DNA from: Roseivivax isoporae LMG 25204
Lineage (GTDB): Bacteria; Pseudomonadota; Alphaproteobacteria; Rhodobacterales; Rhodobacteraceae
Direction: 5' to 3'
Assembly: GCF_000521865.1 (NCBI RefSeq)
Contig: NZ_JAME01000037.1
Coordinates: 1 to 40,144 of the forward strand
Length of the DNA stretch: 40,144 nucleotides
Shown: positions 3,059 to 35,810 of the stretch, piece after piece
How the letters are laid out: each line of letters starts with the position of its first letter
How positions within the stretch are numbered: position 1 is the stretch's first letter
The notes under the pieces: model-generated
Databases searched by the model: none
Told to the model about the DNA's origin: nothing
The model's input: the letters and a program-made list of their open reading frames with translations, nothing else
Program-made: the position numbers and the translations under genes

Positions 3059-3084
3059 CGCCGCCGCCTCAGCGCGCGGCGGCG
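3059..3084. terminator. GC-rich hairpin between convergent genes
   Basis: CGCCGCCGC (3059-3067) pairs perfectly with GCGGCGGCG (3076-3084) across an 8-nt loop. It lies between the SDR stop and the end of the leftward sulfotransferase, overlapping the latter's last codons. It could stop transcription in both directions, although no T-run is present. Confidence 0.4.
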
Positions 3085-3872
3085 GCGTGGGAGAGTGCTG
3101 CCTCGTGGATGGCGAGGTCGGGGGCGCAGAGCTCGCGCAAGCGGGCGAGGACCCTGTCGGGAAAGGGCGGCGCGCCGTCGGGGGCGGCGTTCAGGCGCTG
3201 GAGCCGGAGCGGCACGCCGAAGGTCTCGCGGTAGCCCGCAAGGAAGGCGGGCTGGCGGTCGAGGAAGCCCACGAGCGCGAAGCCGTCGAGCCGCGCGATG
3301 GCCTCGCCCGTGGCTTCGGCCACCGCGTCCTCGGCGATGTCGTTGCGGCCCGCGAGGTAGCGCAGGTAGACCCGGGCGTGCCGGCGGGCGACGGAGCTCT
3401 CAAGATAGGCCTCAAGATCGTCATCCACGAGCCCCGCCCGCTGCGCCATCCGGAGGTTCGAGATGGTCCGCGCGAGCGGCTCGCGCAAGAGCGTCACGTA
3501 GCGGTAGCGGTCGCCGAAATGCGCGTGCGCGGCCTCGGACCACAGGACGTGGCCGTGGATCAGCATCGTGTCCCAGGCCATGTGCTGCAGCATCAGGGTC
3601 TCGCGCAGGTCGAAGACGCGCCAGCCCTCGTCGAAATCCTCGTGGCAGGCCCGCGGGTCGTCGCGGCCGAAGGCGCGGATCGCCGCCGCCCGCCGGGTCG
3701 AGACCGCGTCGATGACGCCGATGCGCTGCTGCATCGGCACGGTGGCGTACATCGCCTCGGACAGCGAGGTGCCGCCGCATTTCGGCATGTGGAAGAACAC
3801 GCTCGGGTGGCGCGGCGGCGATCCGGTGGCGGTGCGCAGGACGCGCCCCCCGCCGATCGCCATGCGCCGCAC
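3069..3872 (-). CDS. Sulfotransferase family protein (family-2 type), 1 of 5
   Basis: About 267 residues. The 5'-phosphosulfate loop is visible near the N-terminus as FFHMPKCGGTSL (around residues 26-37). The 3'-phosphate motif is LLREPLARTISNL (Arg near 130, Ser near 138), and an HGH stretch lies between them. These match PAPS-dependent sulfotransferases of the family-2/HS2ST-like group, which usually modify carbohydrates. I chose the GTG at 3872 because AGGGA sits 7 nt upstream; an ATG three codons further in (3863) is the alternative. It is a single gene, convergent with the SDR. Its place at the edge of an EPS locus suggests sulfation of the polymer, which is inference. Confidence 0.8.
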   Translation of the reverse strand: MRRMAIGGGRVLRTATGSPPRHPSVFFHMPKCGGTSLSEAMYATVPMQQRIGVIDAVSTRRAAAIRAFGRDDPRACHEDFDEGWRVFDLRETLMLQHMAWDTMLIHGHVLWSEAAHAHFGDRYRYVTLLREPLARTISNLRMAQRAGLVDDDLEAYLESSVARRHARVYLRYLAGRNDIAEDAVAEATGEAIARLDGFALVGFLDRQPAFLAGYRETFGVPLRLQRLNAAPDGAPPFPDRVLARLRELCAPDLAIHEAALSHAAAAR

Positions 3873-4100
3873 CAGACGTTCCCTGAAGGGGGCTTTGCGC
3901 GCCAAGGCTGCCTCGTGTCGCTCGGCCGGACGGGTGCCGGGGCCCCTGCCGGAATGGATGTGGGACGGCCGGCGCGTCGCGCGCGACCCGTGCGGCGACC
4001 GTAGCGCCGCAGCGCGGCAAGGCGCAATGCGCCCGCGCCCGCTTTTGCCCCCGGCGCGCGCGGATGGCGTCGAAACCGGCGCCTTCCCGCGAGACGCGAA

Positions 4101-4125
4101 CGCCCCCGTGCGGGGCACGGGGGCG
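4101..4125 (-). terminator. Strong hairpin downstream of the small RTX gene
   Basis: CGCCCCCGTG and CACGGGGGCG form a perfect 10-bp stem with a 5-nt loop, about 30 nt after the RTX stop codon. It has no clear T-tract, as is common in very GC-rich genomes. Confidence 0.6.
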
Positions 4126-4155
4126 CGGCATTCCGGCCCGTCGGCCGACTGCGGT

Positions 4156-4695
4156 TCAGAGCACCGTGTCGGTGGCGAAGATCGCGTTGACGTCCTCGAC
4201 GCTCAGGCCGGCGAAGATGATCGTGCCGCCGCTGTCGAGTTCGACCACCGCGCCCTGCGCGCCGTCGGTGACCGACACGACGCTCACGTCCTCGAGCAGG
4301 ATCTGGTCGATGCCCGTCTCGTAGTCGAAGATCTTGTTCCAGCCGGTGGCGTTGTCGCGGAAGTAGAACGTGTCCGACCCCGCGCCGCCGAAGAACTTGT
4401 TGTCGCCCTCGCCACCGCTCAGCAGGTCGTTGCCGACGCCGCCCGCGAGCTTGTCGTCGCCGACGCCGCCCACGAGGGTGTCGTCGCCCGCGCCGCCGCT
4501 CAGGGTATCGTCGCCCGGGCCGCCGGCCAGGCTGTCGTTGCCCGTCCCGCCCTTGAGCATGTCGCTGCCCGCGCTGCCCTTGAGGGAATCGTCGCCGCCG
4601 GCACCGTTGATCGAGTCGTTGCCTCCGGCGGCATTGATCGTGTCGTCGCCGTTGCTCGCCAGGAGCGACTCGATGCCGTTCGATGTGAGAATCAT
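4156..4695 (-). CDS. Small RTX calcium-binding repeat protein, probably type I secreted
   Basis: A 179-residue acidic protein. Residues about 14-110 are roughly ten consecutive RTX nonapeptides of the form GGxGxDxLx (for example GGAGDDTLV and GGTGNDSLA), which bind calcium in a beta-roll. A C-terminal segment (FYFRDNATGWNKIFDYETGIDQILL and on) resembles the post-repeat region of RTX proteins that carries the uncleaved type I secretion signal. There is no enzymatic domain and no Sec signal. It is monocistronic, with a long AT-richer upstream region holding a dyad (4849-4877) and a terminator hairpin behind. It may act as a secreted EPS- or surface-associated calcium-binding protein. The exporter genes are not in the window. 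Confidence 0.85.
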   Translation of the reverse strand: MILTSNGIESLLASNGDDTINAAGGNDSINGAGGDDSLKGSAGSDMLKGGTGNDSLAGGPGDDTLSGGAGDDTLVGGVGDDKLAGGVGNDLLSGGEGDNKFFGGAGSDTFYFRDNATGWNKIFDYETGIDQILLEDVSVVSVTDGAQGAVVELDSGGTIIFAGLSVEDVNAIFATDTVL

Positions 4696-4848
4696 GGAAT
4701 CATCCGTCTTAAAAATGGCCGCCGAAATAGGGGCCGAGTGGAAACACCTGGGACGGGCAACGCCTTAATTCCGCCACATCCCGGCCGGACCTTAGCCGCG
4801 ATCGATGACGAGTCAACGAAACGGCCCGCGCTGTCGCGCGCTGCAGTG

Positions 4849-5052: not shown

Positions 5053-5922
5053 TCACACGCTCCAGTTGTCGAAGGGCAGCCCCGTCATCTCGCGGAAGAG
5101 CGCCGCGTCAGCGGCGAGATCGGCGCGGAACCGGGCGCGCAGCGCCTCGGGGAACGGCGCGGCGTGGCGGGCGGGCCCGCGCGCGAGGCCGCGTCGGATC
5201 CGGTCGCGCGTGCCGCGGCCGACGAGCCCCGCGATCCGCCGTCCCGCCGGCGACTGGGCGAAGCGCAGGACCGGCGCGGGCACCCGCGACAGCTCGCGGC
5301 TGTCGTTCTGCGCGCCGGCGTCCGCCACCGCATGGCGCGGCGCGCCGATATGGTCGCAGACCCGGTCGAACACCGCCTGGGGGTCGCGCACGAGCAGGTC
5401 GAAGTCGAGGACCGCCACCGCCTCGGCCGGGAAGTGGCGGCGATATTCCGCGAGCTGGCGCGCGTAGCGGCTCGCATCGAGGATGTGGTGGTATTCGTGG
5501 CTGTCCGCGAAGGCCTCGAGACCGCCCGGCAGCGTGCCCATGAGCACGCCGTGGCGGAACTGCGATTCCGCCCGCGCCACCGGGTCGCGCACGATGTAGA
5601 CGAGCCGCGCCTCGGGACAGGTCTCGGCCATCCGCGCGGCGACGCCGGGAAAGTCGCGGGACTTGGTGTAGTTCGGGCTCGCCTCGCCGCGCAGACGCGG
5701 GGCGCCCGGGGTCTCGCGCGCGAACTGCGCCTCGTACCAGTCGAGCCCCTGCGGCCAGTTCTTCTCGGCCACGAAGAAGTCCGTCTCCTTGTCGCGCGAC
5801 ATGTCGATGCCGGGATGGGCGGCGAGCTGGCGGTAGAGCGTGGTGGTGCCGCATTTCATCGCGCCGATGATGATGAAGTGCGGCAGGCGCCGGCCGGCGG
5901 CGGCCGTGTGGGGGGCGGTCAT
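5053..5922 (-). CDS. Sulfotransferase domain protein, 2 of 5, last gene of the exo operon
   Basis: A 289-residue cytosolic sulfotransferase of the Sulfotransfer_1 type. The PAPS 5'-phosphosulfate loop is IIIGAMKCGTTTLYRQL (MKCGTTT at 22-28). KETDFF follows at 45-50, and the 3'-phosphate site is YIVRDPVARAESQF (Arg112, Ser120). All expected PAPS-binding residues are present. The ATG overlaps the stop of the ExoM-like gene by 4 bases (ATGA), so it is translationally coupled to a sugar transferase. This is strong contextual evidence that its acceptor is the EPS repeat unit or its lipid-linked precursor. The exact sugar and position cannot be read. Confidence 0.85.
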   Translation of the reverse strand: MTAPHTAAAGRRLPHFIIIGAMKCGTTTLYRQLAAHPGIDMSRDKETDFFVAEKNWPQGLDWYEAQFARETPGAPRLRGEASPNYTKSRDFPGVAARMAETCPEARLVYIVRDPVARAESQFRHGVLMGTLPGGLEAFADSHEYHHILDASRYARQLAEYRRHFPAEAVAVLDFDLLVRDPQAVFDRVCDHIGAPRHAVADAGAQNDSRELSRVPAPVLRFAQSPAGRRIAGLVGRGTRDRIRRGLARGPARHAAPFPEALRARFRADLAADAALFREMTGLPFDNWSV

Positions 5923-6815
5923 GTCCGCGATCCTCCGTAGAGCGCGCGCTGGGGCAGCTTCAGGCAGCCCGCGCAGACGCCCGCATGCATGGTGCCGCGC
6001 ATGAGCCAGAAGGCGCGCCGCTCGCGGTTCGGGACCGAGAGGCCCGCGCGCAGCCCGCAATAGCCCGCCTTGAGCGCGGCGGTGGCGAAGAGGCGCACCC
6101 GCGCGGGCGCGTCCGTGGCCGAGGCGGCGTAGCTCTGGCCGATCCGGTAGCGGCGGCGCAGGAGCCAGCCGAGGCTCAGCCGTTCGGGCGGCACGGCCTC
6201 GGTGACGACCGCCTCGGGTGCCACCGCATAGACCGCGCCGAGCCGGCGCAGGCGGAAGAAGAACTCGGTGTCCTCGCCGCCCGAGCGGCCGCGGGCGAGC
6301 TCGAAGCGCGCGGCGCGCCAGGGCGCGTCGCCCCAGCGCAGGAGCGCGTTGCAGGTGTGCCCGGTCTCGACCACGCCGCCGCGCGGCGCCGCGCGCTGCG
6401 AGTGGAAGTCGCCGCGCACGATCCAGTCGGGCGTGCCCGGGTCGTAGCGGGCCCGGCTCGGGCCGAAGATGCCGTCGGCGCCGGTCTCGCGCTGGCGGGC
6501 GAGGAGCGCCTCGAGCCAGTCCTCGCGGGCGATCTCGTCGTCGTCGAGAAAGGCCAGCCAGTCGGCGTCCGCCGCGTCGAGCCCGGCATTGCGCGCGATC
6601 GAGATGTTGCCGCCCGGCACGTGGCGGTAGCGCACGGGGAAATCGAGCGCCGCCGCGGCCTCCGCGACCCGCGCCTCGGCGCTCGGGGTCGCGTCGTTGT
6701 CGATCACGAGGGCCGACAGCGCGACGCCCCCGGGCACCCGCAGCCGGCCGAGCGAGGCGAGCGTGTCGGCCACGTGCGGGCGGCGGAAGGTGCAGATGCA
6801 GATCTCGATCCTCAT
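5919..6815 (-). CDS. exoM: ExoM-like family 2 glycosyltransferase
   Basis: A 298-residue GT2 enzyme. Features I recognise from succinoglycan ExoM are the N-terminal CICTFRRP, the donor-site FLDDDE (around residue 90), RGDFHS, TGHTCNALLR and SGGEDTEFFFRL, plus the C-terminal HAGVCAGCLKL segment. In S. meliloti ExoM adds a beta-1,4 glucose to the lipid-linked succinoglycan intermediate; the same reaction here is likely but not proven. It acts at the inner face of the cytoplasmic membrane. It overlaps by 4 bases with exoA upstream and with the sulfotransferase downstream, so it sits inside one operon. Confidence 0.85.
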   Translation of the reverse strand: MRIEICICTFRRPHVADTLASLGRLRVPGGVALSALVIDNDATPSAEARVAEAAAALDFPVRYRHVPGGNISIARNAGLDAADADWLAFLDDDEIAREDWLEALLARQRETGADGIFGPSRARYDPGTPDWIVRGDFHSQRAAPRGGVVETGHTCNALLRWGDAPWRAARFELARGRSGGEDTEFFFRLRRLGAVYAVAPEAVVTEAVPPERLSLGWLLRRRYRIGQSYAASATDAPARVRLFATAALKAGYCGLRAGLSVPNRERRAFWLMRGTMHAGVCAGCLKLPQRALYGGSRT

Positions 6816-7837
6816 CGCCAGCCCCCCGGCCGCGCCATCTCGGTCAGGAAGCCCATCCCCCAGGCGCCGTGCATGGCGGCGAGCGCCGGGCCCACCCAGA
6901 GCGCGCAGGCCGAGCGCCGGCGCAGGACCTCGCGCAGGGTCAGCGCCGCGAGCGCGCCCGCGTAGAGCCCGGGCAGGAGCAGCGCCGCGGGCGCCCAGGG
7001 CGCCGCGAGAAGCCCCGCGAGGCAGGCCAGGACCACGAGCGGCGGCAGCATCTGGCGCAGCCGCGGGCGCATGCGGTGCCTCTTTACCGTCTGCGCCCGG
7101 CCCACGCCGTAGCGCCAGTACTGCCGCGCGAGGGCGGCGGGCGTCGGGCGCATGACGTAGCCGATGCGGATCGTCGCATCGAGCCAGATGCGTCCGCCCG
7201 CGCGCCCGATGCGGTGGTCGAGCTCGGCATCCTCGTTCGCCACGAAGCGGGTGTCGTAGCCGCCCACCGCCCGGAAGGCCGCGAGGTCGAAGCCCGCATG
7301 GTGGCCGTGGTCCACGTAGCCCGAGCGGGTGCCGCCGCGATGGCCCGACCCGCCCGATCCCGCGCGGGTCTCCATCGCCCAGGCGGCGCCGCGCTGGAAA
7401 CAGCCCGTGCCCCCCGAATCCATCACCGTGGCGAGCGCCGCGACGCCCCGGGCGCGCAGGGAGGAGGCCACCCGCAGCACGTAGTCCGGCGGGTAATGCG
7501 CATGGGCGTCGACCCGCACGAGGATCCTGTGCCGCGGCTCGGCGCAGGTCTCGACCACGAGGTTGACCGCCACCGATTGCAGCCGCCCGGGATTGTCGAC
7601 GAGCCGCAGGTTGGGCCGGGTCAGGGCCATCTCGCGCACGATCGCGGGCGTGCGGTCGCGGCTGCCGCCATCGGCCACGACCACGCGCACCTGCTCCATG
7701 CCGGGGCAGTCCATGATCGCCGCGAGGGTCGCGGCGATATGCGCCTCCTCGTTCAGGACGGGGATCGCCACGAGGATCTCGGCCGGATCGACGGCGGGCG
7801 TGTCGGCCACGGGCGGGGAGGAGAGCGGGCGCGTCAT
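6812..7837 (-). CDS. exoA: ExoA-like succinoglycan family 2 glycosyltransferase
   Basis: A 341-residue GT2 protein with the ExoA signature. It shows VAIPVLNEEAHI at the start, VVADGGSRDRT, the acidic donor site RVDAHAHYP, GGSGHRGG...VDHGHHA, then NEDAELDHRIGRAGG and QYWRYGVGRA. Two or three hydrophobic segments near the C-terminus (around residues 270-330) anchor it in the membrane. ExoA adds the first glucose, beta-1,3-linked, to the lipid-linked galactose in succinoglycan synthesis. The start ATG overlaps the ExoL-like stop by 4 bases. The close match of motif order makes the family call firm; the linkage is inferred from the family. Confidence 0.87.
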   Translation of the reverse strand: MTRPLSSPPVADTPAVDPAEILVAIPVLNEEAHIAATLAAIMDCPGMEQVRVVVADGGSRDRTPAIVREMALTRPNLRLVDNPGRLQSVAVNLVVETCAEPRHRILVRVDAHAHYPPDYVLRVASSLRARGVAALATVMDSGGTGCFQRGAAWAMETRAGSGGSGHRGGTRSGYVDHGHHAGFDLAAFRAVGGYDTRFVANEDAELDHRIGRAGGRIWLDATIRIGYVMRPTPAALARQYWRYGVGRAQTVKRHRMRPRLRQMLPPLVVLACLAGLLAAPWAPAALLLPGLYAGALAALTLREVLRRRSACALWVGPALAAMHGAWGMGFLTEMARPGGWR

Positions 7838-9033
7838 GTCCCGGCGCCGCCCGAACAGACCCGCTCCACCACGGCCGTGATGTCCTCGGGCGATTGCACG
7901 AAATCGGTCTCGGGCCGGGCGAGGAGCGCCGCGCCGCGGGCCGCGACGGCCTCGGGCGTCAGCCCGGCCAGAAGGGCCGCGAGGTCGTCGGCCTCCGGCC
8001 GGGCGATCGCCCAGCCGAGCCCGTCCGCCTCCACCCGGCGGCCGGTCTCGGTGCCCGCGACGGCGATGCTCGGGCAGCCTGCCCAGCTCGCCTCGTAGAT
8101 TCGGTTCGGCAAAAGCCAGTCGGAATTGCTGCCCCGCTGCCACAGATCCTGCGCCCAGACGAGGTCGCAGCCGCCGTAGACGCGCGCGAGGTCGTCCGGG
8201 TAGGCGTAGGGCCCGTGGAAGGTCATGTTGGGCCGCGCCGCCAGCACCGCGTCGAACTCGGGCAGCGCGTGGCGGTGCACCACGCCGTGGATCTCGACCC
8301 GGATCGCCGGGCCCATGCGGTCGGCGAGCGCGGCGAGGAGCGCGAGGCTCGGGGCGCAGCGGATGGTGCCCACCCAGCCGAGCCGCAGGGGCCCCGAGGG
8401 CGCGGCGCGCCGGTGCGGCCGGGCGGGCAGCGCCGCCCCCGCGGCGAGCTTGTTCTCCCAGAGCGCCCAGGGGCCGTCATAGGCCTGCAGCGGCGCGAAA
8501 TACTCGGTGACGAAGCTCGGCGAGGAGACGACGAGCATCGCGCAGCGCGCGAGCAGGAACCGTTCCGCCCGGCGCATGGCTCGCGCCTTGGCGCCTTCGC
8601 CCACGAGCGCGCCGTTGATGTCGAGGCATTCGTAGACCAGCGGCACCCGCCCGGCCCCGGCGCTGGCGCGCGCGGCCCAGGCGATGGCCAGCATGTCGAG
8701 GTTGCGCGCCACGATCATGTCGGCCTGCCGCAGCCGGGCGCCGTGCGGCGCGACCTTGGCGACCGAGCCCGCGACCGCGGCGGCGCGCAGCGGCAGGTTG
8801 TCGTTCACGGTGTTGAAGAGATGCGTGTTCGGCCAGTCGGGACGGAAGTCCCGGTTCATGTTCTGCCGGCGCATGGTGAAGCTGTGCACCGCGTAGCCCG
8901 CCGCGCGCATGGCCCGGATCCGGCGGATCTGCGAGATCTCGGCCACGTCGAAGCCGAAGACCTCGATCCGGAGCGGCCGCGCGGGCTGCGCCGCGGGCGC
9001 CCTGCCCGGTCGCTGCCGCGCCGGCTCAGGCAT
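7834..9033 (-). CDS. exoL: ExoL-like GT-B glycosyltransferase
   Basis: A 399-residue protein with the two-domain layout of GT-B enzymes. The N-terminal half reads IRRIRAMRAAGYAVHSFTMRR, then DMIVARNLDMLAIAW and VYECLDING. The C-terminal half has GWVGTIR, FHGPYAYPDDLARVYGGCDLVW and the donor-binding IYEASWAGCPSIA. Order and spacing resemble ExoL of succinoglycan synthesis, which adds a beta-1,4 glucose, and its position next to exoA and exoM supports this. The gene overlaps the exoP stop by 8 bases and exoA by 4. The ExoL name is less certain than ExoM and ExoA. Confidence 0.72.
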   Translation of the reverse strand: MPEPARQRPGRAPAAQPARPLRIEVFGFDVAEISQIRRIRAMRAAGYAVHSFTMRRQNMNRDFRPDWPNTHLFNTVNDNLPLRAAAVAGSVAKVAPHGARLRQADMIVARNLDMLAIAWAARASAGAGRVPLVYECLDINGALVGEGAKARAMRRAERFLLARCAMLVVSSPSFVTEYFAPLQAYDGPWALWENKLAAGAALPARPHRRAAPSGPLRLGWVGTIRCAPSLALLAALADRMGPAIRVEIHGVVHRHALPEFDAVLAARPNMTFHGPYAYPDDLARVYGGCDLVWAQDLWQRGSNSDWLLPNRIYEASWAGCPSIAVAGTETGRRVEADGLGWAIARPEADDLAALLAGLTPEAVAARGAALLARPETDFVQSPEDITAVVERVCSGGAGT

Positions 9034-11329
9034 AGTACTCGTTCACCTCGGTGCGGTTGTAGCCCTCGTAGCGCCGGAGCGGCACGCGGGTGAAGAGCGC
9101 GCCGAAGAAGCGGTCGCGGCGCAGGCCGTGCTGGCGCAGCGCCGAGGCCACCTGTTCCTTCGGCGTGGCCCCCCAGCGCACGGCGAGCACCAGCGTGTCG
9201 CAGAGCGTGACGAGCAGCCGCGTCTCGGCCACGCCGTGCAGCGGCGGCAGGTCGACGATCACGTGGTCGAAATGCTCGCGCAGCACCGCGAGCGCGCGCC
9301 CGACCCGTTCCGCGTCGCGCGGACCGAAGGCCGAGGTGCCCTGGTGCGGCACGTTGCCGATCACCGCGAGGCCCGGGAATTCCTCGATCGGCACGAGGTC
9401 GGGCATCGCCGCCTCGGGGTTCTCGCAGAACCGCGGCAGCATGTTCGCCTCGGGCAGGACCCGGCGCAGCGTGCGCGTCAGGTCGCAGGTGATCGTGTCG
9501 AGGTCGACGATCGCCACGGATTCGCCCCGCGCGGCGAGGAAGTTCGCGAAGTTGAAGGCGGTCGTGGTCTTGCCCTCGTCGCGCACCGAGGAGGTGATGC
9601 CGATGACCGTGCCGCCCTGCCCGGCCGCGGCGCGCGGGCGCGCGAGGGCGAGCTGCACCTGCAGCCCGCGCATGGTCTCGGCGGTGACCGAGGTGGGCCA
9701 GGAGGCGGCGAAGCCGAAGGTGCGCAGCGCCGCCGGCAGCCGCCGCCAGCCCCGGAGCCGCTCGCCCGCGCCCGGATCGATGGCCGCGGCCCTGGCGCGG
9801 CGGCGGTCCGAGCGGAAGCTCGGCACGATCCCGAGGAAGTTGAGCCCCAGCACCGCGGGCACGTCGGCCTGCCGGCGGAAGCGGTTGTCGACCGCCTCGA
9901 TCAGGAAGATCAGCCCGAGCGCCACGACGAGCCCGCCGAAGGCCGCGAGCACCACCACGCGCTTCGATTGCGGGGCGGACTTGCTGTCGGGGGGCACCGC
10001 CCAGGCGATCACCCGGGCAGAGGTGGAATCGAAGGTCAGGAGCTGCGAGGTGCTGTTGTACTCCTCGAGCAGCCGCTCGTAGAGCTGGCGCTTGGCCTCG
10101 GCCTCGCGCTCGAGCCGGCGCAGCTGCACGGTCTTGCGCGCGTCCTCGCCATAGGCCGCCTGCAGCTCGCCCAGGAGCTCGCGGGTGGCGGTCACGCGCT
10201 GGCGCAGGGTCTCGGCGCGGGCGGCGAGCCGGTCGCGGATCTGGCCGTACTCGTCGAGGATCAGCTCGCGGGTCTGCGCCTTGCGCCGCGCGAGGCTCTG
10301 CATCACCGGCGCCTCGCTGTCCCAGGTCAGCAGGAGTTCCTTCTCCTCCTGCAGGAGCTGCGAATAGGTCGTCTCGAACTCGTCGAGCGCGGCGCTGCGC
10401 TCCTCGGGGGGCAGCTGCACCGCCTCGATGTTGCCGCTCTCGATCTGGTTGCCGAGCTGGCGCAGCTGGACCTCGAGCGCCAGCGCCTCGCCCTGCAGGC
10501 GCACCAGCTCCTCGTTCGCCGCGTTGAGCGCGATCTCGCTCGGCAGAAGCTGCCCCTCGGGGGCGAGGAGCGCGTTGTCGGTGCGGTACTCCGCGACCGC
10601 CTGCTCGGCCGCCTCGACGCCGGCGCCGAGCTCCTCCACCCGCTCGGCGAGCCAGGTCTGGGTGCGCTCGGCCGAGGCGATCTGGCGCCGGCCGGAGACC
10701 GAGAGGTACTGCTCGATCAGCGTGTTGACCGCGCGGGCCGAGAACTCGATGCCGGGCGAGGTGTAGGTGACGTCGATCACGAAGGTCTCTCCGGCGCGCT
10801 CGACCCGGAGCCCGCGGGTGAAGGCCCGGCGCACCGCCTCGGTGCGGCGCTCCTCGCGGGTCTCGGGCGCGAGCTCCTGCTCGGGCTCGTCCCCGAGCCC
10901 GAAATCGGGCAGCGCGCCGAGCATCCGCCGCGCGAAGGACGGCTCGGACGGCTGCGCGGCCTCGAAGAGGCCGAGATCGCGGGCGGCGGACTGGGTGACC
11001 TCGCGCGAGGTCAGCACGCGCAGCTCGCTGTCCACGGTCAGCGCGTCCGACATCAGCAGCCCCGGCATGGCGCCGGCATTGCTCTCGGGCGTCTGGCCCA
11101 CGCGCGGGTCGATCAGGATTGACCCGTTCGCGGTGTAGACCGGTGTCGCCGTCAGCACGTAGGCAAGCCCCACCGCGACCGCGCCCGTGACCATCACCGC
11201 GAGCAGCAGCCAGTGCCGCAGGACCTTCTCGACACTGTCGCGCAGCACCGCGCCGAGGTCGATCGCCGGCAGGACCGAATCCCGGGAGGACGGAGCGGCC
11301 GTGGCGGGGGCGCGGTCGACGTTGTTCAT
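9026..11329 (-). CDS. exoP: ExoP-like Wzz/Wzc polysaccharide co-polymerase with divergent BY-kinase domain
   Basis: A 767-residue inner-membrane protein controlling EPS chain length and export. It has a first membrane helix at about 40-60, a long periplasmic Wzz/GNVR region with coiled coils (about 180-440), and a proline-rich motif before the second helix (about 455-480). A cytosolic tyrosine-kinase-like domain follows. Its Walker A is TSSVRDEGKTT (Lys587), Walker A' is IVDLDTIT (Asp609, Asp611), Walker B is VIVDLPP (Asp693). The C-terminal tail carries Tyr754, 757, 765 and 766, the usual autophosphorylation cluster. The A loop and A' lack the canonical PGEGK and DxDxR residues, so catalysis may be altered. 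It is the first gene of the leftward operon. The ATG at 11329 lies just before the first helix; its ribosome site is weak. Confidence 0.88.
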   Translation of the reverse strand: MNNVDRAPATAAPSSRDSVLPAIDLGAVLRDSVEKVLRHWLLLAVMVTGAVAVGLAYVLTATPVYTANGSILIDPRVGQTPESNAGAMPGLLMSDALTVDSELRVLTSREVTQSAARDLGLFEAAQPSEPSFARRMLGALPDFGLGDEPEQELAPETREERRTEAVRRAFTRGLRVERAGETFVIDVTYTSPGIEFSARAVNTLIEQYLSVSGRRQIASAERTQTWLAERVEELGAGVEAAEQAVAEYRTDNALLAPEGQLLPSEIALNAANEELVRLQGEALALEVQLRQLGNQIESGNIEAVQLPPEERSAALDEFETTYSQLLQEEKELLLTWDSEAPVMQSLARRKAQTRELILDEYGQIRDRLAARAETLRQRVTATRELLGELQAAYGEDARKTVQLRRLEREAEAKRQLYERLLEEYNSTSQLLTFDSTSARVIAWAVPPDSKSAPQSKRVVVLAAFGGLVVALGLIFLIEAVDNRFRRQADVPAVLGLNFLGIVPSFRSDRRRARAAAIDPGAGERLRGWRRLPAALRTFGFAASWPTSVTAETMRGLQVQLALARPRAAAGQGGTVIGITSSVRDEGKTTTAFNFANFLAARGESVAIVDLDTITCDLTRTLRRVLPEANMLPRFCENPEAAMPDLVPIEEFPGLAVIGNVPHQGTSAFGPRDAERVGRALAVLREHFDHVIVDLPPLHGVAETRLLVTLCDTLVLAVRWGATPKEQVASALRQHGLRRDRFFGALFTRVPLRRYEGYNRTEVNEYYA

Positions 11330-11637: not shown

Positions 11638-12513
11638 ATGCGCGAGTTTCAAGCGACCTTCGTCGGCATCGGCGGGCAGAAATGCGCGACGACCTGGCTC
11701 TACGGGGTGCTGCGGCAATGCCCGGACGCCGCGGTCAGCGACGAGAAGGAAGTGGACTTCTTCAGCTACTATTTCGACCGCGGCTACGAATGGTACGAGC
11801 GGCATTTCGCCGGCACCGCCGGGCGGCGCCACCGGGGCGAGATCTCGCCCTCCTACCTGATCCATCCCGCGGCGCCGGCGCGGGCGGCGGCCTACAACCC
11901 GGACCTGCACGTCTTCGTCACCCTGCGCGACCCGGTGCGGCGGGCCTTCTCGAACCACCTGCACGAGGCGCGCAAGGGCCACGTGAGCGGCGCGAACCTC
12001 GTCTTCGAGACCGCGCTCGACAACAACCCGCTCTACCTCGACCAGGGGCGCTACGCGACGCATCTCGCGCGGTGGTACGACCATTTCCCCGCGGACCGCA
12101 TCCACGTGCTGTTCCAGGAGGAGATCACCGCCGACCGCGCGGGCGCCGCGCGCGCGGTGACCGACGTGCTGGGGCTCGCGCCGCTTCAGGACTTCCTCGA
12201 CCTGCGCGCGAACGAGAGCGTGCGCTACCGCAATCCCGCGCTCGGCACGGCGCTCTGGCGGCTCGGGCGGGCGGCGCGCGACCGCGGGCTCGGGCGGCTC
12301 GTGGAGCACGCCAAGGCGGCGCCGGGCATCCGGCAGCTGCGCAGCGCCAACCGGGAGGCGATGACCGAGGTGGTGGACCCCATGGCGCCCGAGACCGAGC
12401 GCCGGCTCGAGGCGTTCTACGCCGACGAGGTCGCGGCGCTGGAACGGCTGGTGGGCCGGCCGGCGCCCTGGCCGCGCTTCGCCCCGGCAGGAGCGCCGCA
12501 GGCGGTGGGCTGA
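11638..12513 (+). CDS. Sulfotransferase domain protein, 3 of 5
   Basis: A 291-residue Sulfotransfer_1-type protein. The 5'-phosphosulfate loop is VGIGGQKCATTWLYGVL (residues 9-25); Ala17 replaces the usual Gly of GTT, a tolerated variant. EKEVDFF follows at 36-42, then GEISPSY and the 3'-phosphate motif VTLRDPVRRAFSNH (Arg97, Ser105). The ATG at 11638 follows GGGCGGGA. It is divergent from exoP and may share control with it. It ends 19 bp before the end of the convergent subtilase gene. It probably sulfates the EPS repeat unit; the acceptor is unknown. Confidence 0.85.
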   Translation: MREFQATFVGIGGQKCATTWLYGVLRQCPDAAVSDEKEVDFFSYYFDRGYEWYERHFAGTAGRRHRGEISPSYLIHPAAPARAAAYNPDLHVFVTLRDPVRRAFSNHLHEARKGHVSGANLVFETALDNNPLYLDQGRYATHLARWYDHFPADRIHVLFQEEITADRAGAARAVTDVLGLAPLQDFLDLRANESVRYRNPALGTALWRLGRAARDRGLGRLVEHAKAAPGIRQLRSANREAMTEVVDPMAPETERRLEAFYADEVAALERLVGRPAPWPRFAPAGAPQAVG

Positions 12514-29822: not shown

Positions 29823-31799
29823 ATGAAGTATCGCAGCGAGATTGACGGCCTGCGGACGGTCGCGGTCGTGCCGGTCGTGCTCTTCCATGCCGGGCTCGGG
29901 CTCTTTTCCGGCGGCTTCGTCGGCGTCGACGTCTTCTTCGTGATCAGCGGCTTCCTGATCACCACGATCCTGCTCGGCGACCTCGAGGCCGGGCGCTTCA
30001 GCATCCTGACCTTCTACGAGCGCCGCGCCCGGCGCATCCTGCCCGCGCTCTTCGTGGTGCTGCTGATCTGCCTGCCCTTCGCCTGGGCGTGGATGCTGCC
30101 GTCGATCTTCGAGGAATTCGCCCGCAGCCTGATCGCCGTGGCGCTGTTCTTCTCGAACGTGCTGTTCTGGCGCGAAAGCGGCTACTTCGCCCCCGCCGCC
30201 GAGGAGAAGCCGCTCCTGCACACCTGGAGCCTCGCGGTCGAGGAACAGTACTACCTGATCTTCCCGCTCCTGCTCTGGGCGCTCTGGCGCTGGCGGCGCG
30301 AGCGGCTGATGTGGGTGGTGGCGGCGCTCGCCGCGGCGAGCCTCGGGCTGAACCTCTGGGCGCAGCGCAACGACGCCATCAGCTCCGAGGCGGTGTTCTA
30401 CCTGACCCCGACCCGCGCCTGGGAGCTGCTCGTGGGCTCGCTCTGCGCCTTCCACGACCGCCCCGAGCGGCGGCGGGGCAGCGACGCGCTGGCCGGGCTC
30501 GGGATGGCGATGATCGTGCTGCCGATCTTCCTCTACGACGCCACCACGCCGTTTCCCGGCCTCTACGCCCTGCCCCCGGTCCTCGGCACGGCGCTCGTGC
30601 TGCTGTTCGCGCGGAGCGGCACCCGCGTGGCGCGGCTCCTGTCGGTCGGACCCGTCGTGGGGATCGGGCTCATCAGCTACAGCGTCTACCTCTGGCACCA
30701 GCCGCTCCTGGCCTTCGCCCGGCTGCGCAGCCCGGGCGAGCCGCCGCTCGGGCTGATGCTGGCGCTCGCCGCGGCGTCGCTGCTCCTCGGCTATCTGAGC
30801 TGGCGTTTCGTCGAGCAGCCGTTCCGCCGGGGCAAGCTTTCGCTGCTGCCGCGGCGGGGGCAGATCTTCGCCTTCAGCGGCGCGGGCATGGCCGCGGCCA
30901 TCGGCTTGGGCGCCATCGGCATCGCCGCCGACGGCTTCTCCGGCCGCATGCCGCCCGCCTTCTTCGAGCGCGAGGCGGTGCTTGCCGCCGCCGAGGCCGA
31001 GCGCTTCGAGGCGATCGGCCAGGGCACCTGCCACTACAACCGGATGGGGGAGCGCGCCCGGCTCGACGACTTCCTCGGCGCCTGGACCTGCGGGCCGGAG
31101 GGGCCGGGCCCGGTGCTCGCGCTCTACGGCGACAGCCACGCCGCCGACAAGGCCGCGGTGCTGCGCCTCGCCGGCATGGCGCCGCTGCAGATGACCGGGG
31201 CGGGCTGCCCGCTCCTGCCGGAGAGCGGCGGGCCGTCCTATTGCGACACCCTGCTCGCGGCCTTCGTCGAGACCGCCCGCGCCGCCGGCGCCGAGCGCGT
31301 GGTCCTCGCCAACCGCTTCGAGACGAACGAGCTCGCGCCCGCCTACCTGTCGCGGCTCGCCGATTTCTGGACCGAGGCCTTTGACGAGGTCTACCTGTTC
31401 TCGCCGATGCCGGAGTTTCCCGGCCTCAAGGAGGGCTTCCTCCTGGGCGGGCTGCCGGCGGTCGCCGCGCTGCATCCCGAGACTGCGGAGGGCACGGCCT
31501 TCGCCGACGCGGCCGCGCGCGCCGATCTGGGCAGGCTCGCGGTGCTGCCGACCGAGGTCTATTTCTGCGCGGACAGGCCCGGCTGCGGCGCGGTGGCCGG
31601 CGACGCGCTCCTGCTCCTCGACCCGACGCACCTCACCCGCGCGGGCGCGGCCCGCTTCGCCGAGGCCTTCCGCACCGCGGCCCCCTTCGGGACCGCGGAC
31701 GACCTCGCCGACTGCGCCCCCGATCCCTGTCCCGCCCTCCCGGTCCGGGAGGGACGGGCGGGAACCGGGAGCGCGGCTCCGCTCAGCCCATCGCGGTGA
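29823..31799 (+). CDS. OafA/YrhL-like acyltransferase with C-terminal SGNH domain
   Basis: 658 residues. The N-terminal acyltransferase 3 domain (about ten helices, 1-350) begins YRSEIDGLRTVAVVPVVLFHAG, with the catalytic His in FHAG, then GGFVGVDVFFVISGFLIT and LHTWSLAVEEQYYLIFP. An extra helix follows at about 355-375. The periplasmic SGNH domain has block I YGDSHA (Ser438) and block V DPTHLT (Asp600, His603). Such two-part enzymes O-acetylate polysaccharides. It lies 106 bp after the GH16 gene on the same strand. Its last 17 bases overlap the 3' end of the convergent CHRD-RTX gene. Confidence 0.9.
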   Translation: MKYRSEIDGLRTVAVVPVVLFHAGLGLFSGGFVGVDVFFVISGFLITTILLGDLEAGRFSILTFYERRARRILPALFVVLLICLPFAWAWMLPSIFEEFARSLIAVALFFSNVLFWRESGYFAPAAEEKPLLHTWSLAVEEQYYLIFPLLLWALWRWRRERLMWVVAALAAASLGLNLWAQRNDAISSEAVFYLTPTRAWELLVGSLCAFHDRPERRRGSDALAGLGMAMIVLPIFLYDATTPFPGLYALPPVLGTALVLLFARSGTRVARLLSVGPVVGIGLISYSVYLWHQPLLAFARLRSPGEPPLGLMLALAAASLLLGYLSWRFVEQPFRRGKLSLLPRRGQIFAFSGAGMAAAIGLGAIGIAADGFSGRMPPAFFEREAVLAAAEAERFEAIGQGTCHYNRMGERARLDDFLGAWTCGPEGPGPVLALYGDSHAADKAAVLRLAGMAPLQMTGAGCPLLPESGGPSYCDTLLAAFVETARAAGAERVVLANRFETNELAPAYLSRLADFWTEAFDEVYLFSPMPEFPGLKEGFLLGGLPAVAALHPETAEGTAFADAAARADLGRLAVLPTEVYFCADRPGCGAVAGDALLLLDPTHLTRAGAARFAEAFRTAAPFGTADDLADCAPDPCPALPVREGRAGTGSAAPLSPSR

Positions 31800-33099
31800 G
31801 TTCGATGATGCCGGCCTGGCCCGCGATCTGCAGGTTGATCTCGTCCTGCGCGGCGCCGTCGACCAGCGCCCAGAGCACCTGGCCCGAAGGCATGTGGGTG
31901 ATGAAGGCCTCCTCGACGCCCGCATCGCCCGAACCGGAATCGGCGTAGGTCAGGCGGAAGTCCCCGGCATTGGCGACCCCGCCATAGACCAGGAGATCGC
32001 CCTCGTCCCCGGCATAGTCGCCGATGAAGTCGGAGCCGTGCCCTTCGGCGCCCAGGTGGAAGAACTGGTCGGCGCCGGCCCCGCCCATGGCCTCGTCGAA
32101 GCCGTAGCCGCCGTTCAGCACGTCGTCGCCGTCACCGCCCAGGAGCGTGTCCGACAGCGCGTTGCCGGTCAGCGTGTCATTGCCCGACTGGCCGATGAGG
32201 CGGTCCGCGCCGGTGCCGCCGAAGATCATGTCGTCGCCCGCGCCGCCGATGACGACGTCGTTGCCGGCATCGCCCGAGAGCATGTCGTCGCCGTTCATGC
32301 CCATGAGCACGTCACCTTCGCCGCCGCCCGAGAGCGTGTCGTTGCCGCCCCCCCCGGAAACGGTGTCGTTGCCCGCGCCCGCGTCGAAGACGTCGTCCTC
32401 CGCGCCGAAGACGAAGCTGTCGCTTGCCTCCGCGCGCTGGTCCTCGAGCCGGTCGAGCGCCTCGTCGAGATCGATGGCCTCGATCTCTCCGGCCGCCGCG
32501 GGCAGGATCGGCACGTACCCGTCCTGCGTGCCGTCGACCTCGCCGTCACCGCCGCCGATATTGCCCGGCACGTCGAGCCCGTGCAGCACGATCTCGCGGA
32601 AGGTCAGCGGCAGAATGTCCTCGGCGGTGTACTCCGCGCCGGTCACGGGGCTGCCGAAGTTCGCATCGTTCCCGAGCTCGTAGGATTGCAGGAAGCTCAG
32701 CTGGCCGTTCATGTCGGCCATGGGATGGTTGCCCCCCTCGGGCGTCACGAGGCTGAGGAGCACGTCGCCGTAGGACGCGACGCCCTCGATCACCTCGACG
32801 ATGCCGTCGCCGTCGGCATCCTGCGCAAGGCCCGGGGTGACGGAATCGATCGGGTTGCCGTCATCGTCGAAGCGGCCATGGATGTGCTGGACATGGGTCT
32901 CGCCCGGCGTCAGGCCCTCGGCCAGGATCGACACGTTCAGGTAGCGGGAGCCGTCGGCCTCGGTGTTCAGCGAGAGGATCGCGTCACCGGTGACCCCCGA
33001 GGAGTTCAGCGCGGCGAGATCCACCGCCCAGAACCCGTCGACGTCGTCGCGGCCGAGAAAGGCCTCGAAGGATGCATAAGTCGGGTCGAGATGTGCCAT
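31783..33099 (-). CDS. CHRD-domain RTX calcium-binding protein
   Basis: 438 residues. An N-terminal CHRD-type domain (about 20-175) has the His-containing HVQHIHGRFDDDG and NHPMADMNGQL segments. An acidic linker follows, then about ten RTX nonapeptides (about 243-345, such as GGGGNDTLS and GGAGDDMIF) and a C-terminal region of the type I-secretion kind. There is no Sec signal. The ATG at 33099 is behind AGGAG, which lies inside a hairpin (33111-33134). CHRD domains occur in secreted bacterial proteins of unclear function, so I make no activity claim. It may be an extracellular matrix protein of the EPS layer. Confidence 0.82.
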   Translation of the reverse strand: MAHLDPTYASFEAFLGRDDVDGFWAVDLAALNSSGVTGDAILSLNTEADGSRYLNVSILAEGLTPGETHVQHIHGRFDDDGNPIDSVTPGLAQDADGDGIVEVIEGVASYGDVLLSLVTPEGGNHPMADMNGQLSFLQSYELGNDANFGSPVTGAEYTAEDILPLTFREIVLHGLDVPGNIGGGDGEVDGTQDGYVPILPAAAGEIEAIDLDEALDRLEDQRAEASDSFVFGAEDDVFDAGAGNDTVSGGGGNDTLSGGGEGDVLMGMNGDDMLSGDAGNDVVIGGAGDDMIFGGTGADRLIGQSGNDTLTGNALSDTLLGGDGDDVLNGGYGFDEAMGGAGADQFFHLGAEGHGSDFIGDYAGDEGDLLVYGGVANAGDFRLTYADSGSGDAGVEEAFITHMPSGQVLWALVDGAAQDEINLQIAGQAGIIELTAMG

Positions 33100-33110
33100 A
33101 AGTCCGGTTT

Positions 33111-33134
33111 CTCCTGTCTTCGGGACAACAGGAG
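33111..33134 (-). promoter_or_regulatory. Hairpin covering the ribosome binding site of the CHRD-RTX gene
   Basis: CTCCTGT (33111-33117) and ACAGGAG (33128-33134) form a 7-bp stem with a 10-nt loop. In the leftward mRNA the AGGAG that serves the start at 33099 is the 3' arm, so the stem would hide it. It could be a translational switch or a DNA operator. Confidence 0.5.
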
Positions 33135-33166
33135 CCACGGACGCGCCCCGACCCGAGTTTCAGGAA

Positions 33167-33185: not shown

Positions 33186-33191
33186 CGCGGC

Positions 33192-34082
33192 TCAGCGCGC
33201 CGGCGGCTCGTGTGCCGCGAGGTTGGCGAGATACGCGCCGTAATCGTTCTTGGCGAAGAGTTTCGCGCGCTCGGCCAGCGCCGTGCGGTCGATCCAGCCG
33301 AGGGCATAGGCGATCTCGTCGGGGCTGCCGGTCTGCAGGCCCTGGCGCTTCTCCAGCGTGCGCACGAAATTCCCCGCGTCGAGGAGGCTTCCGTGGGTGC
33401 CGGTGTCGAGCCAGGCATAGCCGCGGCCCATCTGCTGCACGGTGAGCTGTCCGTCGGCCAGGTACATCTCGAGGAGCGTGGTGATCTCGAGTTCGCCGCG
33501 CGCCGAGGGCGTGACCTTGCGCGCGCGCTCGGGCGCGGTGCCGTCGAGGAAGTAGAGCCCGGTGACCGCGTAGGACGAGGGCGGCACCGCGGGTTTCTCG
33601 ACGATCTGGCGCACCCGCCCAGCGTCGTCGAAGTCGACGACGCCGTAGCGTTCGGGATCGGCCACGCGGTAGCCGAAGACGGTGCCGCCGGAGCCTTGCG
33701 CATCCGCGCCGGCCAGGAGCTCCGGCAGGCCGTGGCCGAAGAAGATGTTGTCGCCGAGCACCATCGCCGACGGCCGACCCGCGAGGAAGTCCTCGGCCAG
33801 GAGGTAGGCCTGCGCCAGCCCCTCGGGGCGCGGCTGCACGATGTAGGTGAAGGCGAGGCCCCACTGGCTGCCGTCGCCCAGGACCCGGCGGAACTGGTCC
33901 TGGTCCTCGGGCGTGGTGATGATGGCGATCTCGCGGATGCCCGCATGCATCAGCACCGAGACCGGGTAGTAGATCATCGGCTTGTCGTAGACCGGCAAAA
34001 GCTGCTTCGAGACGCCGAGCGTGACCGGGTAGAGCCGGGTGCCCGAGCCCCCGGCGAGGATGATGCCCTTGCGATCGCTCAT
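33192..34082 (-). CDS. rfbA: Glucose-1-phosphate thymidylyltransferase (RfbA/RmlA)
   Basis: 296 residues, the usual RmlA length. It starts KGIILAGGSGTRLYPVT (nucleotide-binding GGxGTR), followed by SKQLLPVYDKPMIYYPVSVLM, LGDNIFFG and GRGYAWLDTGTHGSLLDA, all conserved in RmlA. It joins dTTP and glucose-1-phosphate to dTDP-glucose, the first step to dTDP-L-rhamnose. The ATG overlaps the rfbD stop by 4 bases. It is the last gene of the leftward rfb set. Confidence 0.96.
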   Translation of the reverse strand: MSDRKGIILAGGSGTRLYPVTLGVSKQLLPVYDKPMIYYPVSVLMHAGIREIAIITTPEDQDQFRRVLGDGSQWGLAFTYIVQPRPEGLAQAYLLAEDFLAGRPSAMVLGDNIFFGHGLPELLAGADAQGSGGTVFGYRVADPERYGVVDFDDAGRVRQIVEKPAVPPSSYAVTGLYFLDGTAPERARKVTPSARGELEITTLLEMYLADGQLTVQQMGRGYAWLDTGTHGSLLDAGNFVRTLEKRQGLQTGSPDEIAYALGWIDRTALAERAKLFAKNDYGAYLANLAAHEPPAR

Positions 34083-34939
34083 GTGCGGGATGCTCCGAGT
34101 TCCTTGAGGATGTCGGCGAGGCCGCGGCGCCAGTCCGGCCGCGCGACGCCGAAGGCGGCCTCGGTCGCGCCGGTGTCGAGACGCGAATTGGCCGGCCGCG
34201 CGGCCGGGGTGGGATAGTCCGAGGTGGCGATGTCGACGACCTCGGGCGCGAGGCCCGCCTGGCGGAAGATCTCGCGCGCGAAATCGGCCCAGCTGACATC
34301 CGGACCCCCGGCGAAGTGGTAGGTCCCGGAAAGCCCGGGATCGTCGGCGAGCGCGCGGGCGATCCCGCGGCAGGCATGCGCGATGTCGGCGGCGGGCGTC
34401 GGGCCCCCCACCTGGTCGGCGACGATGGTGAGCCGGTCGCGCTCGGCCCCGAGACGCAGCATGGTCTTCACGAAGTTCCGCCTGTGCGCCGAGACCACCC
34501 AGGAGGTGCGCAGGATGACATGGGGGCCGCCCGCCGCGCGCACCGCCGCCTCGCCCGCGAGCTTGGTGCGGCCATAGGCGCCGAGCGGCGCCGTGGGCGC
34601 GTCCGGGGCAAAGGGCGTGCTGCCCGCGCCGTCGAAAACGTAGTCGGTCGAGATGTGCACGAAGGGGATGCCGGCCGCCGCCGCCGCGCGGGCCATGGCG
34701 CCCGGCGCCTCGGCATTGACCACGTGCGCCTCGGCCTCAGCCTCCTCCGCCGCGTCGACCCCGGTCCAGGCGGCGGCGTTGATCACCGCCCGGGGCCCAT
34801 GCGCCGCGATCGCCGCGGCGCAGGCGGCGGGGTCGGAGAGATCCGCCGCCTCGCGCCCGAGGAACACCGCGTCCCCGCCCGCCTGCCGCGCCAGTTCGGT
34901 GGCCACCTGTCCGGTCCGGCCGAAGACCAGGATCGTCAT
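34079..34939 (-). CDS. rfbD: dTDP-4-dehydrorhamnose reductase (RfbD/RmlD)
   Basis: 286 residues. The NAD(P)-binding start is ILVFGRTGQVATELA. STDYVFDG follows, then the catalytic YxxxK in YGRTKLAGE, and FHFAGGPDVSW-type C-terminal motifs (YHFAGGPDVSWADFA). It makes dTDP-L-rhamnose in the last step of the pathway. GGGGAG precedes the ATG at 34939. Upstream, where rfbB would be expected to abut in an uninterrupted operon, a sulfotransferase gene on the other strand intervenes, so rfbDA probably needs its own promoter in 34940-35153. Confidence 0.95.
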   Translation of the reverse strand: MTILVFGRTGQVATELARQAGGDAVFLGREAADLSDPAACAAAIAAHGPRAVINAAAWTGVDAAEEAEAEAHVVNAEAPGAMARAAAAAGIPFVHISTDYVFDGAGSTPFAPDAPTAPLGAYGRTKLAGEAAVRAAGGPHVILRTSWVVSAHRRNFVKTMLRLGAERDRLTIVADQVGGPTPAADIAHACRGIARALADDPGLSGTYHFAGGPDVSWADFAREIFRQAGLAPEVVDIATSDYPTPAARPANSRLDTGATEAAFGVARPDWRRGLADILKELGASRT

Positions 34940-35153
34940 GTCCGTCTCCCCTCAAGGGCCCGCGAAGACCATCGCCAGCGCGCCGCGCATGGCGTAGTCC
35001 GCCGCGTCCCGATCTGCAACCGGAGGGCAGCCGCTCGAGCCGCCCAACTTTGGACCCCGTGCGCCTCCAACGCGGCTTGGTGCCGGCGAGGCAAGGTGGT
35101 TCCTCGGCTTCGCTCGTGTATACCGACCCGGCACCTTGACCGGATCCGGCGCC

Positions 35154-35810
35154 ATGATGTCCAGCAGCCATCGCTTCATCTACCTGCACGTCCCTAAGAC
35201 TGGCGGGAACACCATCCAGTCGCTGCTGCTGGACCTCAGCGACGACAGGAAAGTCTGCACCGGCCATCAGGACGGGCGGGACCGTTTCGAGGTCCGGGGG
35301 CCGGTCACCCCCCGCAAGCACGCCACGCTCGCCGACTACACCCGGCGGCTCGGCATGGGACTGGACGATTGCCGAGTGATCATCTCGGTCCGGCACCCGT
35401 TCGAGCGTCTGGTCTCGGCCTACTTCAGCCCCCATCGATGGATGACGCGGAGTGCTGCGGATACCTGGGAAATGCGTCCGCCGATCTGGGATGAAGCTCT
35501 TTTCGAGGACATGCTGCAGCGACCGGAATGGCGACCCGCCATGCATCACCTCGACACTGACGAGGGTGTCCGGCCTGCCGATCACGTCATCCACCTCGAG
35601 AGCTTCGCCCGCGATCTGGCTCGAACACTGCACGCGCTGGACGTGCCGCTGGCATGGCCCGGGGCGCCCCCGAGGGTCAACCGCTCGGCCGCCCCGGCAG
35701 AAATGCGCAAGGTCCTCTCGAGCCGCACGCTGCGGGACCGGATCGAAGATCTGCATGCCGCGGATATGGATCACTTCGGCTACGAGAGCTACGACTTGGC
35801 GCCTCGGTAG
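35154..35810 (+). CDS. Sulfotransferase family 2 protein, 5 of 5, interrupting the rfb genes
   Basis: 218 residues. FIYLHVPKTGGNTIQ (PKTGGNT at 14-20) is the phosphosulfate loop and VIISVRHPFERLVSAYF (Arg80, Ser88) the 3'-phosphate site, the standard pair of family-2 carbohydrate sulfotransferases. I start at the first of two adjacent ATGs. It lies between rfbD and rfbB on the opposite strand to both, ending 7 bp from the rfbB stop. Its base composition is visibly less GC-rich than the flanking rfb genes, which suggests later insertion. Its presence beside rhamnose genes raises the possibility that rhamnose is the acceptor, but this is guesswork. Confidence 0.8.
   Translation: MMSSSHRFIYLHVPKTGGNTIQSLLLDLSDDRKVCTGHQDGRDRFEVRGPVTPRKHATLADYTRRLGMGLDDCRVIISVRHPFERLVSAYFSPHRWMTRSAADTWEMRPPIWDEALFEDMLQRPEWRPAMHHLDTDEGVRPADHVIHLESFARDLARTLHALDVPLAWPGAPPRVNRSAAPAEMRKVLSSRTLRDRIEDLHAADMDHFGYESYDLAPR

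Follow-up and report, generated by a model that had tools for sequence, protein, structure and literature searches.

The contig NZ_JAME01000037.1 of Roseivivax isoporae LMG 25204 (40,144 nucleotides; this whole stretch is hereafter called the window) carries an exopolysaccharide (EPS) locus of the succinoglycan type together with five sulfotransferase (ST) genes, and this raises the question of what polymer such a locus makes. An original prediction, made from the letters of the window, had proposed a sulfated, rhamnose-containing, succinoglycan-like polymer. From homology and gene context we infer support for the terms sulfated and succinoglycan-like, and we consider it probable that the locus makes a sulfated EPS by the Wzx/Wzy route, on a succinoglycan backbone and with cytosolic STs acting before export.

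As had been predicted, five complete ST genes lie in or beside one Wzx/Wzy EPS locus: ST1 (3069..3872, minus strand), ST2 (5053..5922, minus), ST3 (11638..12513, plus), ST4 (20215..21198, plus) and ST5 (35154..35810, plus), the last of them inside a group of rml genes. Four of the five proteins passed the Pfam cut-off, i.e., ST2 (PF13469, 1.2e-18), ST3 (PF00685, 1.9e-9), ST4 (PF13469, 4.5e-36) and ST5 (Sulfotransfer_2 family, PF03567, 4.5e-12); ST1 gave no Pfam hit, and homologues of it score narrowly above the cut-off. The loop and the Arg...Ser motif with which STs hold the 5'-phosphosulfate and the 3'-phosphate of the donor 3'-phosphoadenosine 5'-phosphosulfate (PAPS) were found by residue inspection in all five proteins, in ST1 as HMPKCGGTS and R130...S138, next to an HGH motif at residues 106-108. 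Both motifs are also conserved in the relatives of ST1, ST2 and ST3, where they are kept across 37-78% identity among alphaproteobacterial members. The gene overlaps were confirmed as well: ST2 shares 4 bases with exoM, and ST4 shares 4 bases with wzx and 1 base with the glycosyltransferase gene that we call GT2b. None of the five STs contains a hydrophobic segment. The whole genome has ten ST open reading frames (ORFs), five here and the others on contigs C6, C18 (two), C30 and C63; when the ten were placed at random, ignoring contig breaks, a single one of 200,000 trials brought five of them together within this same 33 kb. Chance motifs were rejected as an explanation on the Pfam matches, the profile and fold of ST1 described below, the motif check and the placement trials.

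The profile, the relatives and the predicted fold of ST1 match the heparan-sulfate (HS) 2-O/6-O-STs, and its HGH motif aligns with that of HS 2-O-ST. ST2 and ST3 are of the HS 3-O-ST/NDST type: the best profile match of ST2 is the Alicyclobacillus ST 3rnl (2.1e-38; substrate unstated), followed by HS 3-O-ST (5.7e-31), and that of ST3 is again 3rnl (5.1e-31), followed by HS 3-O-ST (7e-23). The predicted folds of ST1 and ST2 (two models) match STs, and a Foldseek search with the ST2 model gave the same ranking as its profile, 3rnl and then HS 3-O-ST/NDST. These results support the classification of ST1-ST3 as carbohydrate-type STs of predicted activity. ST4 is related to NoeE, an enzyme that sulfates a lipo-chitooligosaccharide (4e-20 with the NoeE model, far below the cut-off of the model; 4e-11 by tblastn to noeE of NGR234), and among solved structures it is closest to protein-tyrosine STs. 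Both likenesses of ST4, and the fact that STs of this kind have several substrates, would fit a situation in which the STs act on other products made near the envelope, such as lipopolysaccharide, lipids or small molecules, and share with the EPS genes only their neighbourhood. We regard this as very unlikely, given that ST1-ST3 are of the carbohydrate type by sequence, and ST1 and ST2 also by predicted fold, that the genes of ST2 and ST4 overlap those for glycosyltransferases or the flippase, and that ST1-ST3 track the EPS core across genera.

The core itself was compared with that of Sinorhizobium meliloti by searching 25 window proteins and 18 proteins of the S. meliloti ml59 exo region (two small sets) against each other for reciprocal best hits. 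The comparison agreed with the predicted succinoglycan-type core, since ExoL, ExoA, ExoM, ExoP, ExoF, ExoZ and the polymerase were all reciprocal best hits. Three contiguous minus-strand genes encode the ExoM-type (GT2; 5919..6815, 44% identity), ExoA-type (GT2; 6812..7837, 39%) and ExoL-type (7834..9033, 34%) glycosyltransferases, and the order exoL-exoA-exoM is the same in both bacteria. They are followed by the gene of an ExoP-type co-polymerase or chain-length protein (9026..11329, minus, assuming the ATG at 11329; 25% to ExoP; TIGR01005 at 1.4e-62, below the cut-off). Further along, on the same strand, are the genes of an ExoF-type outer-membrane export protein (17383..18585; PF02563, 1.9e-12; 25% to ExoF), a Wzy/ExoQ-type polymerase (25017..26270; PF04932, 3.7e-13; 29% to an S. 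meliloti O-antigen-ligase gene in the exoQ position) and an ExoZ-type acyltransferase (26273..27340; PF01757; 40% to ExoZ). The pairs rmlA-ExoN and rmlB-GalE (29% each) were reciprocal too, which we ascribe to shared superfamilies. At 1e-4, none of the 25 window proteins matched ExoO, ExoU, ExoW, ExoV, ExoH, ExoI, ExoK, ExoT or ExoY (ExoO was read from an unannotated gap), and both acyltransferases of the window match ExoZ, neither of them ExoH. In succinoglycan synthesis, ExoY, ExoA, ExoL and ExoM make the Gal-Glc-Glc-Glc backbone and ExoO begins the side chain; the other Exo proteins are likewise given their familiar roles here. Conversely, no ST was found in three rhizobial exo regions (L097, L098 and L105), even at E 0.01 and with ST5 included. 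Plain succinoglycan as the product was rejected after this comparison of protein sets.

The association of STs with this core extends beyond R. isoporae. ExoM-type proteins were detected at 61 loci, and STs were found within 10 kb on each side (less at contig ends) in all 13 loci with ExoM identity of at least 60%, in 11 of the 17 at 50-59% and in 2 of the 31 below 50%, the identity being that of the best segment; the profiles were built from ST1-ST4 of the window, so this count detects their relatives and not every ST. ST1-ST3 are 58-78% identical to their counterparts in six relatives' loci (ST3 reaches 78% in Salipiger mangrovisoli), compared with 57-73% for ExoL, ExoA and ExoM and 47-61% for ExoP. 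A peculiarity of the window was thus rejected, since relatives' loci carry the same ST and EPS gene sets. Five STs are found in S. mangrovisoli, at 58-88 kb of its contig (the one at 85.4 kb is a 27-bit match to PF03567), and five in a Tateyamaria, at 319-350 kb. The search for exoM loci with at least three STs, which had been proposed as a check, was positive: by Pfam and maps, 11 of 17 genomes have them in a span of about 45 kb on the contig that carries exoM, a count that is not a frequency because the 17 genomes were picked for showing such genes. Five of the other six have one or two STs on the exoM contig (one of these contigs is 12 kb long), and the sixth, Poseidonocella, was uncounted.

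What looks like a complete set is contained in 23.5 kb of a Tritonibacter genome: an ExoY-like gene, exoP, exoL, exoA, exoM, wzx, wzy, exoF, ST1-ST3, GH16 and three acyltransferases. With four window and six S. meliloti glycosyltransferases as queries, ExoM, ExoA and ExoL were the only glycosyltransferases found in the regions of Tritonibacter, Donghicola, Jannaschia and Salipiger bermudensis, three of which have an ExoY-like gene. Ten other ORFs in or beside three of these loci showed no glycosyltransferase family in Pfam; they include six from the Tritonibacter flanks, four of which matched no family and might not be true reading frames. The window shares with S. mangrovisoli and Tateyamaria the pairing of ST4 with GT2b (21198..22100, plus; an additional GT2 glycosyltransferase, PF00535, 1.1e-8).

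Besides Roseivivax, an EPS locus with at least two STs was found in Salipiger, Jannaschia, Tateyamaria, Tritonibacter, Carideicomes, Epibacterium, Donghicola, Pelagimonas and Roseovarius, some members being metagenome-assembled genomes or uncultured isolates; Carideicomes belongs to the order Rhodobacterales, and we take the other eight genera to belong there too. ST1 and ST2 relatives lie on one contig within about 10 kb in five of the eight genomes with ST1 (window included). Related gene sets are also present on plasmids of Paracoccus zhejiangensis and Salipiger sp. CCB-MM3, and the EPS locus of the latter plasmid (L094) is differently ordered and has four annotated STs, one of them ST2-like. 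Inside the EPS locus of S. mangrovisoli, between exoF and a GH16 gene, there is a Rep3-type plasmid replication initiator (L107:16201-17529, plus).

The rhamnose of the original prediction fared differently. The rmlA and rmlD genes (33192..34939, minus; PF00483, PF04321) and rmlB and rmlC (35818..37430, minus; PF16363, PF00908), for the synthesis of deoxythymidine diphosphate (dTDP)-rhamnose, are at the edge of the window, and no rml set was found in seven relatives' regions at 1e-10; relaxing the threshold to 1e-3 gave just four weak superfamily matches, none above 30 bits. On this ground, rhamnose was rejected as an established component. The relatives of ST5 are distant (37% at best), and since ST5 lies among the rml genes, linking it to the polymer is a guess. 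Three weak relatives of ST5 occur in open frames of about 1,000-1,400 codons, one in the same genome (C30, 11609-15202) and the other two in the genomes G005 and G070 (L134 and L136), and these may be large proteins or just long open frames of high-G+C DNA. The rml genes commonly serve O-antigen synthesis, which speaks against a rhamnose-containing polymer. A sulfated EPS with a larger repeat, in which the rml enzymes supply dTDP-rhamnose, GT2b or an off-locus enzyme adds it and ST5 sulfates it, appears unlikely to us: rmlA, rmlD, rmlB, rmlC and ST5 are indeed contiguous with the locus, but no rhamnosyltransferase was identified, and the seven regions without an rml set include that of S. mangrovisoli, which is nearly collinear with the window and has both GT2b and ST4. 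Sulfated rhamnose is, for its part, described for bacterial capsules in the available parts of PMC11641403 and PMC11766843, and synechan, the sulfated EPS of Synechocystis, contains rhamnose (PMC8205485, in part).

Turning back to a sulfated polymer on the succinoglycan backbone, its substrate, its sugars, the order of the steps and the number and positions of the sulfates would be as follows. An ExoY-type galactose-1-phosphate transferase encoded on another contig would prime undecaprenyl phosphate, and ExoA, ExoL and ExoM would add three glucoses to give the backbone tetrasaccharide of succinoglycan, to which GT2b would perhaps add one further sugar. The conserved ST1-ST3, and ST4 where GT2b is present, would use PAPS to sulfate different hydroxyl groups on the lipid-bound repeat unit, and the acyltransferases would put on O-acyl groups. 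Wzx would then flip the unit, Wzy would polymerise it, ExoP and ExoF would export the chain and secreted GH16 glycanases would trim it. PAPS is a cytosolic compound, and as the STs have no hydrophobic segments, sulfation before flipping would be the simplest order. With the side-chain (ExoO-type) enzymes, ExoV and ExoH unmatched in the locus and STs present, sulfate may replace succinyl and pyruvyl groups as the negative charge.

The genome contains six priming transferases (PF02397), all of them off the window contig. An ExoY-like pair lies nearly in tandem at the end of C18 (96481-97338 and 98320-99084); its members share 61% and 60% identity with the ExoY encoded in the S. mangrovisoli cluster and resemble galactose-phosphate transferases (WbaP/RfbP models, below the cut-off). 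C18 also carries a third priming transferase and two ST ORFs, and might be a second polysaccharide region. PAPS would be supplied by the one bifunctional ATP sulfurylase/adenosine 5'-phosphosulfate (APS) kinase of the genome, which is encoded on C5 (1,048 bits).

How densely the polymer would be sulfated is less certain. That several positions are sulfated, as had been suggested from the dissimilar STs, is plausible, but gene number does not imply it, as synechan and the capsule of Vibrio sp. KMM 8419 illustrate. According to the available parts of PMC8205485, synechan contains sugar and sulfate at 8:2, and its cluster encodes eight glycosyltransferases and two STs; the ΔxssA mutation abolishes its accumulation, and the ΔxssE mutant keeps the EPS, with little effect on it. 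Similarly, the paper on KMM 8419 names three ST ORFs where each repeat carries a single sulfate (PMC11641403, in part). The EPS of Salipiger mucosus has 0.9% sulfate, with no rhamnose reported in the part of PMC2953402 that was available; its sulfate counts in favour of a sulfated polymer here, and the low amount in favour of sparse sulfation. It is thus quite possible, although not what we expect, that one or two STs alone act on the polymer, the rest being accessory or responsible for minor variants, and that sulfation is sparse. The preservation of the motifs of ST1-ST3 over the identity range given above, the agreement of their identities with those of the core transferases, and the two sulfates per repeat for two STs in synechan argue for the denser alternative. 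On this side we would propose, tentatively and with more doubt than confidence, that Rhodobacterales and some other alphaproteobacteria share an undescribed, densely sulfated, unbranched polymer on the Gal-Glc-Glc-Glc backbone of succinoglycan, each repeat carrying as many as three or four sulfates introduced by HS-type STs, i.e., a bacterial heparinoid.

Several points weigh against a sulfated polymer on the succinoglycan backbone in the form proposed here. Identities of 34-44% for ExoA, ExoL and ExoM are not proof of linkage or sugar, and since GT2b and ST4 alter the repeat, a bare tetrasaccharide would not be the whole story in R. isoporae; ST5 may belong elsewhere. No ExoY is encoded on the window contig, and although five of the seven relatives' regions have an ExoY-like gene, none was found in those of Donghicola and Citreicella. 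The PAPS synthesis genes are not in the cluster either, the APS kinase on C5 being the only one found, whereas PAPS genes within the cluster are described as a hallmark of sulfated polysaccharide clusters in the available part of PMC11641403. One of the three core STs was not found in S. bermudensis or in Carideicomes; in S. bermudensis it is ST3 (a 30% hit is another ST). The locus is also patchy: among 121 genomes, the window's included, relatives of ST2 were found in 25 and of ST1 in 8 (E<=1e-10 for both), and of ST5 in 32 (1e-5). Finally, the EPS of S. mucosus also contains mannose, fucose and 6% pyruvate (PMC2953402, in part).

The remaining genes of the window complete the picture of the locus. 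The Wzx-type flippase (18785..20218, plus) gave no Pfam or NCBIfam hit and was assigned by its position, its 10 hydrophobic segments and its homologues in relatives' loci; one of these, a Paracoccus ORF with no annotation beyond "hypothetical", matches at 113 bits. Two GH16 enzymes are encoded, an EglC-like endo-beta-glycanase with RTX repeats (22108..24891, minus; PF00722, 5.1e-24; NF052454 EglC, 351 bits, below the cut-off) and a second glycanase (27689..29716, plus; PF00722, 4.1e-11), and the second acyltransferase is of the OafA type, fused to an SGNH domain (29823..31799, plus; PF01757, PF19040). RTX repeats are also found in a small calcium-binding protein that recurs in relatives' loci (4156..4695, minus; PF00353, 4.2e-25), in another protein at 31783..33138 (minus; PF00353) and in a subtilase, an S8 protease with a P-domain (12533..15133, minus; PF00082, 1.1e-40; PF00353; PF01483). 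This subtilase adjoins EPS genes in five of the six relatives compared, at 47-54% identity over nearly its full length. An Ig-domain protein of the He_PIG type (15346..17274, minus; PF05345), SGNH-esterase-like by eye only, has relatives in Tateyamaria, Jannaschia and S. bermudensis. At the right end of the contig, a low-G+C stretch contains a GT-D-like gene (37659-38684) beside an IS110-family transposase (38675-39826, minus; PF02371 and PF01548), possibly a recent insertion where the assembly breaks.

The description of the locus as a new system was too strong, since clusters for sulfated EPS and capsules have been published, and one has been proposed for Actinoplanes (in the part of the source available). 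What does seem new is a family of loci with several STs around a succinoglycan core, whose existence and conservation are documented above and whose product would be a sulfated EPS. Among the papers listed by searches of the open-licence PMC literature, we recognised none that describes such a family, and the main text of the genome paper of S. mucosus contains no word starting with "sulfo". In the parts consulted, PMC8205485 and PMC13390465 call sulfated EPS almost exclusive to cyanobacteria among bacteria, and the authors of the former knew of no STs in other bacterial EPS clusters. A conserved multi-ST EPS locus in Rhodobacterales would extend sulfated EPS to a major marine group, and, judging by the comparable loci of its relatives, bacterial polymers that carry sulfate may be more widespread than has been assumed. 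It would also name culturable producers with a short predicted repeat, give HS-like STs open to genetics and supply a biosynthetic source for the sulfated polysaccharide in marine biofilms. In a paper on roseobacters, as far as consulted, genes of Nautella R11 are assigned to succinoglycan on the basis of their annotation, and if the heparinoid proposal is true, part of such annotations would correspond to this sulfated polymer.

Of the closest known systems, the loci of S. mangrovisoli and Tateyamaria (L106-L112) have nearly the same genes, with five STs each, but lack an rml set and have an ExoY-like gene within or close to them; S. mangrovisoli differs further in the Rep3 initiator and in ST5, for which there is no more than a 29-bit match, located elsewhere. 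The exo locus of S. meliloti shares the exoL-exoA-exoM order, ExoP, ExoF, the polymerase and ExoZ, and a GH16 protein near the exo genes of strain 1021 matches the larger GH16 of the window with 261 bits, but it has the ExoO/ExoU/ExoW side chain, ExoV and ExoH, which are unmatched in the window, and the ExoY-like genes of R. isoporae are elsewhere. The vertebrate HS 2-O/6-O- and 3-O-STs resemble the window STs in fold and PAPS site, the latter being bacterial enzymes without a hydrophobic anchor. The capsules of Vibrio sp. KMM 8419 and Cobetia marina KMM 1449 are, as far as the available parts of PMC11641403 and PMC11766843 describe them, also marine, with ST genes and chemically proven sulfate, but they are ABC-transporter capsules with rhamnose repeats and PAPS genes in the cluster. 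The synechan cluster xss of Synechocystis sp. PCC 6803 likewise combines Wzx/Wzy with STs of two subfamilies and makes a proven sulfated EPS (PMC8205485, in part). By tblastn to pSYSM, ST2 matches an ST at 40411-41253 (32%, 1e-29) and ST4 matches, weakly, 43529-44293 of an ST at 43343-44293 (26.5%, 1e-9); by position, these are taken to be XssA, as the first xss gene, and XssE. When this pSYSM stretch was compared with the window genes at 1e-5, only the two STs gave matches, and no XssS, XssR or XssQ regulators were noticed on the contig, no test having been aimed at them. The window thus has an XssA-like ST (ST2) and a weakly XssE-like ST (ST4) next to Wzx, Wzy and a polysaccharide co-polymerase, whereas the synechan cluster differs, as described in PMC8205485, in its eight glycosyltransferases, its repeat of rhamnose, mannose, galactose and glucose, and its two STs compared with the five of R. 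isoporae.

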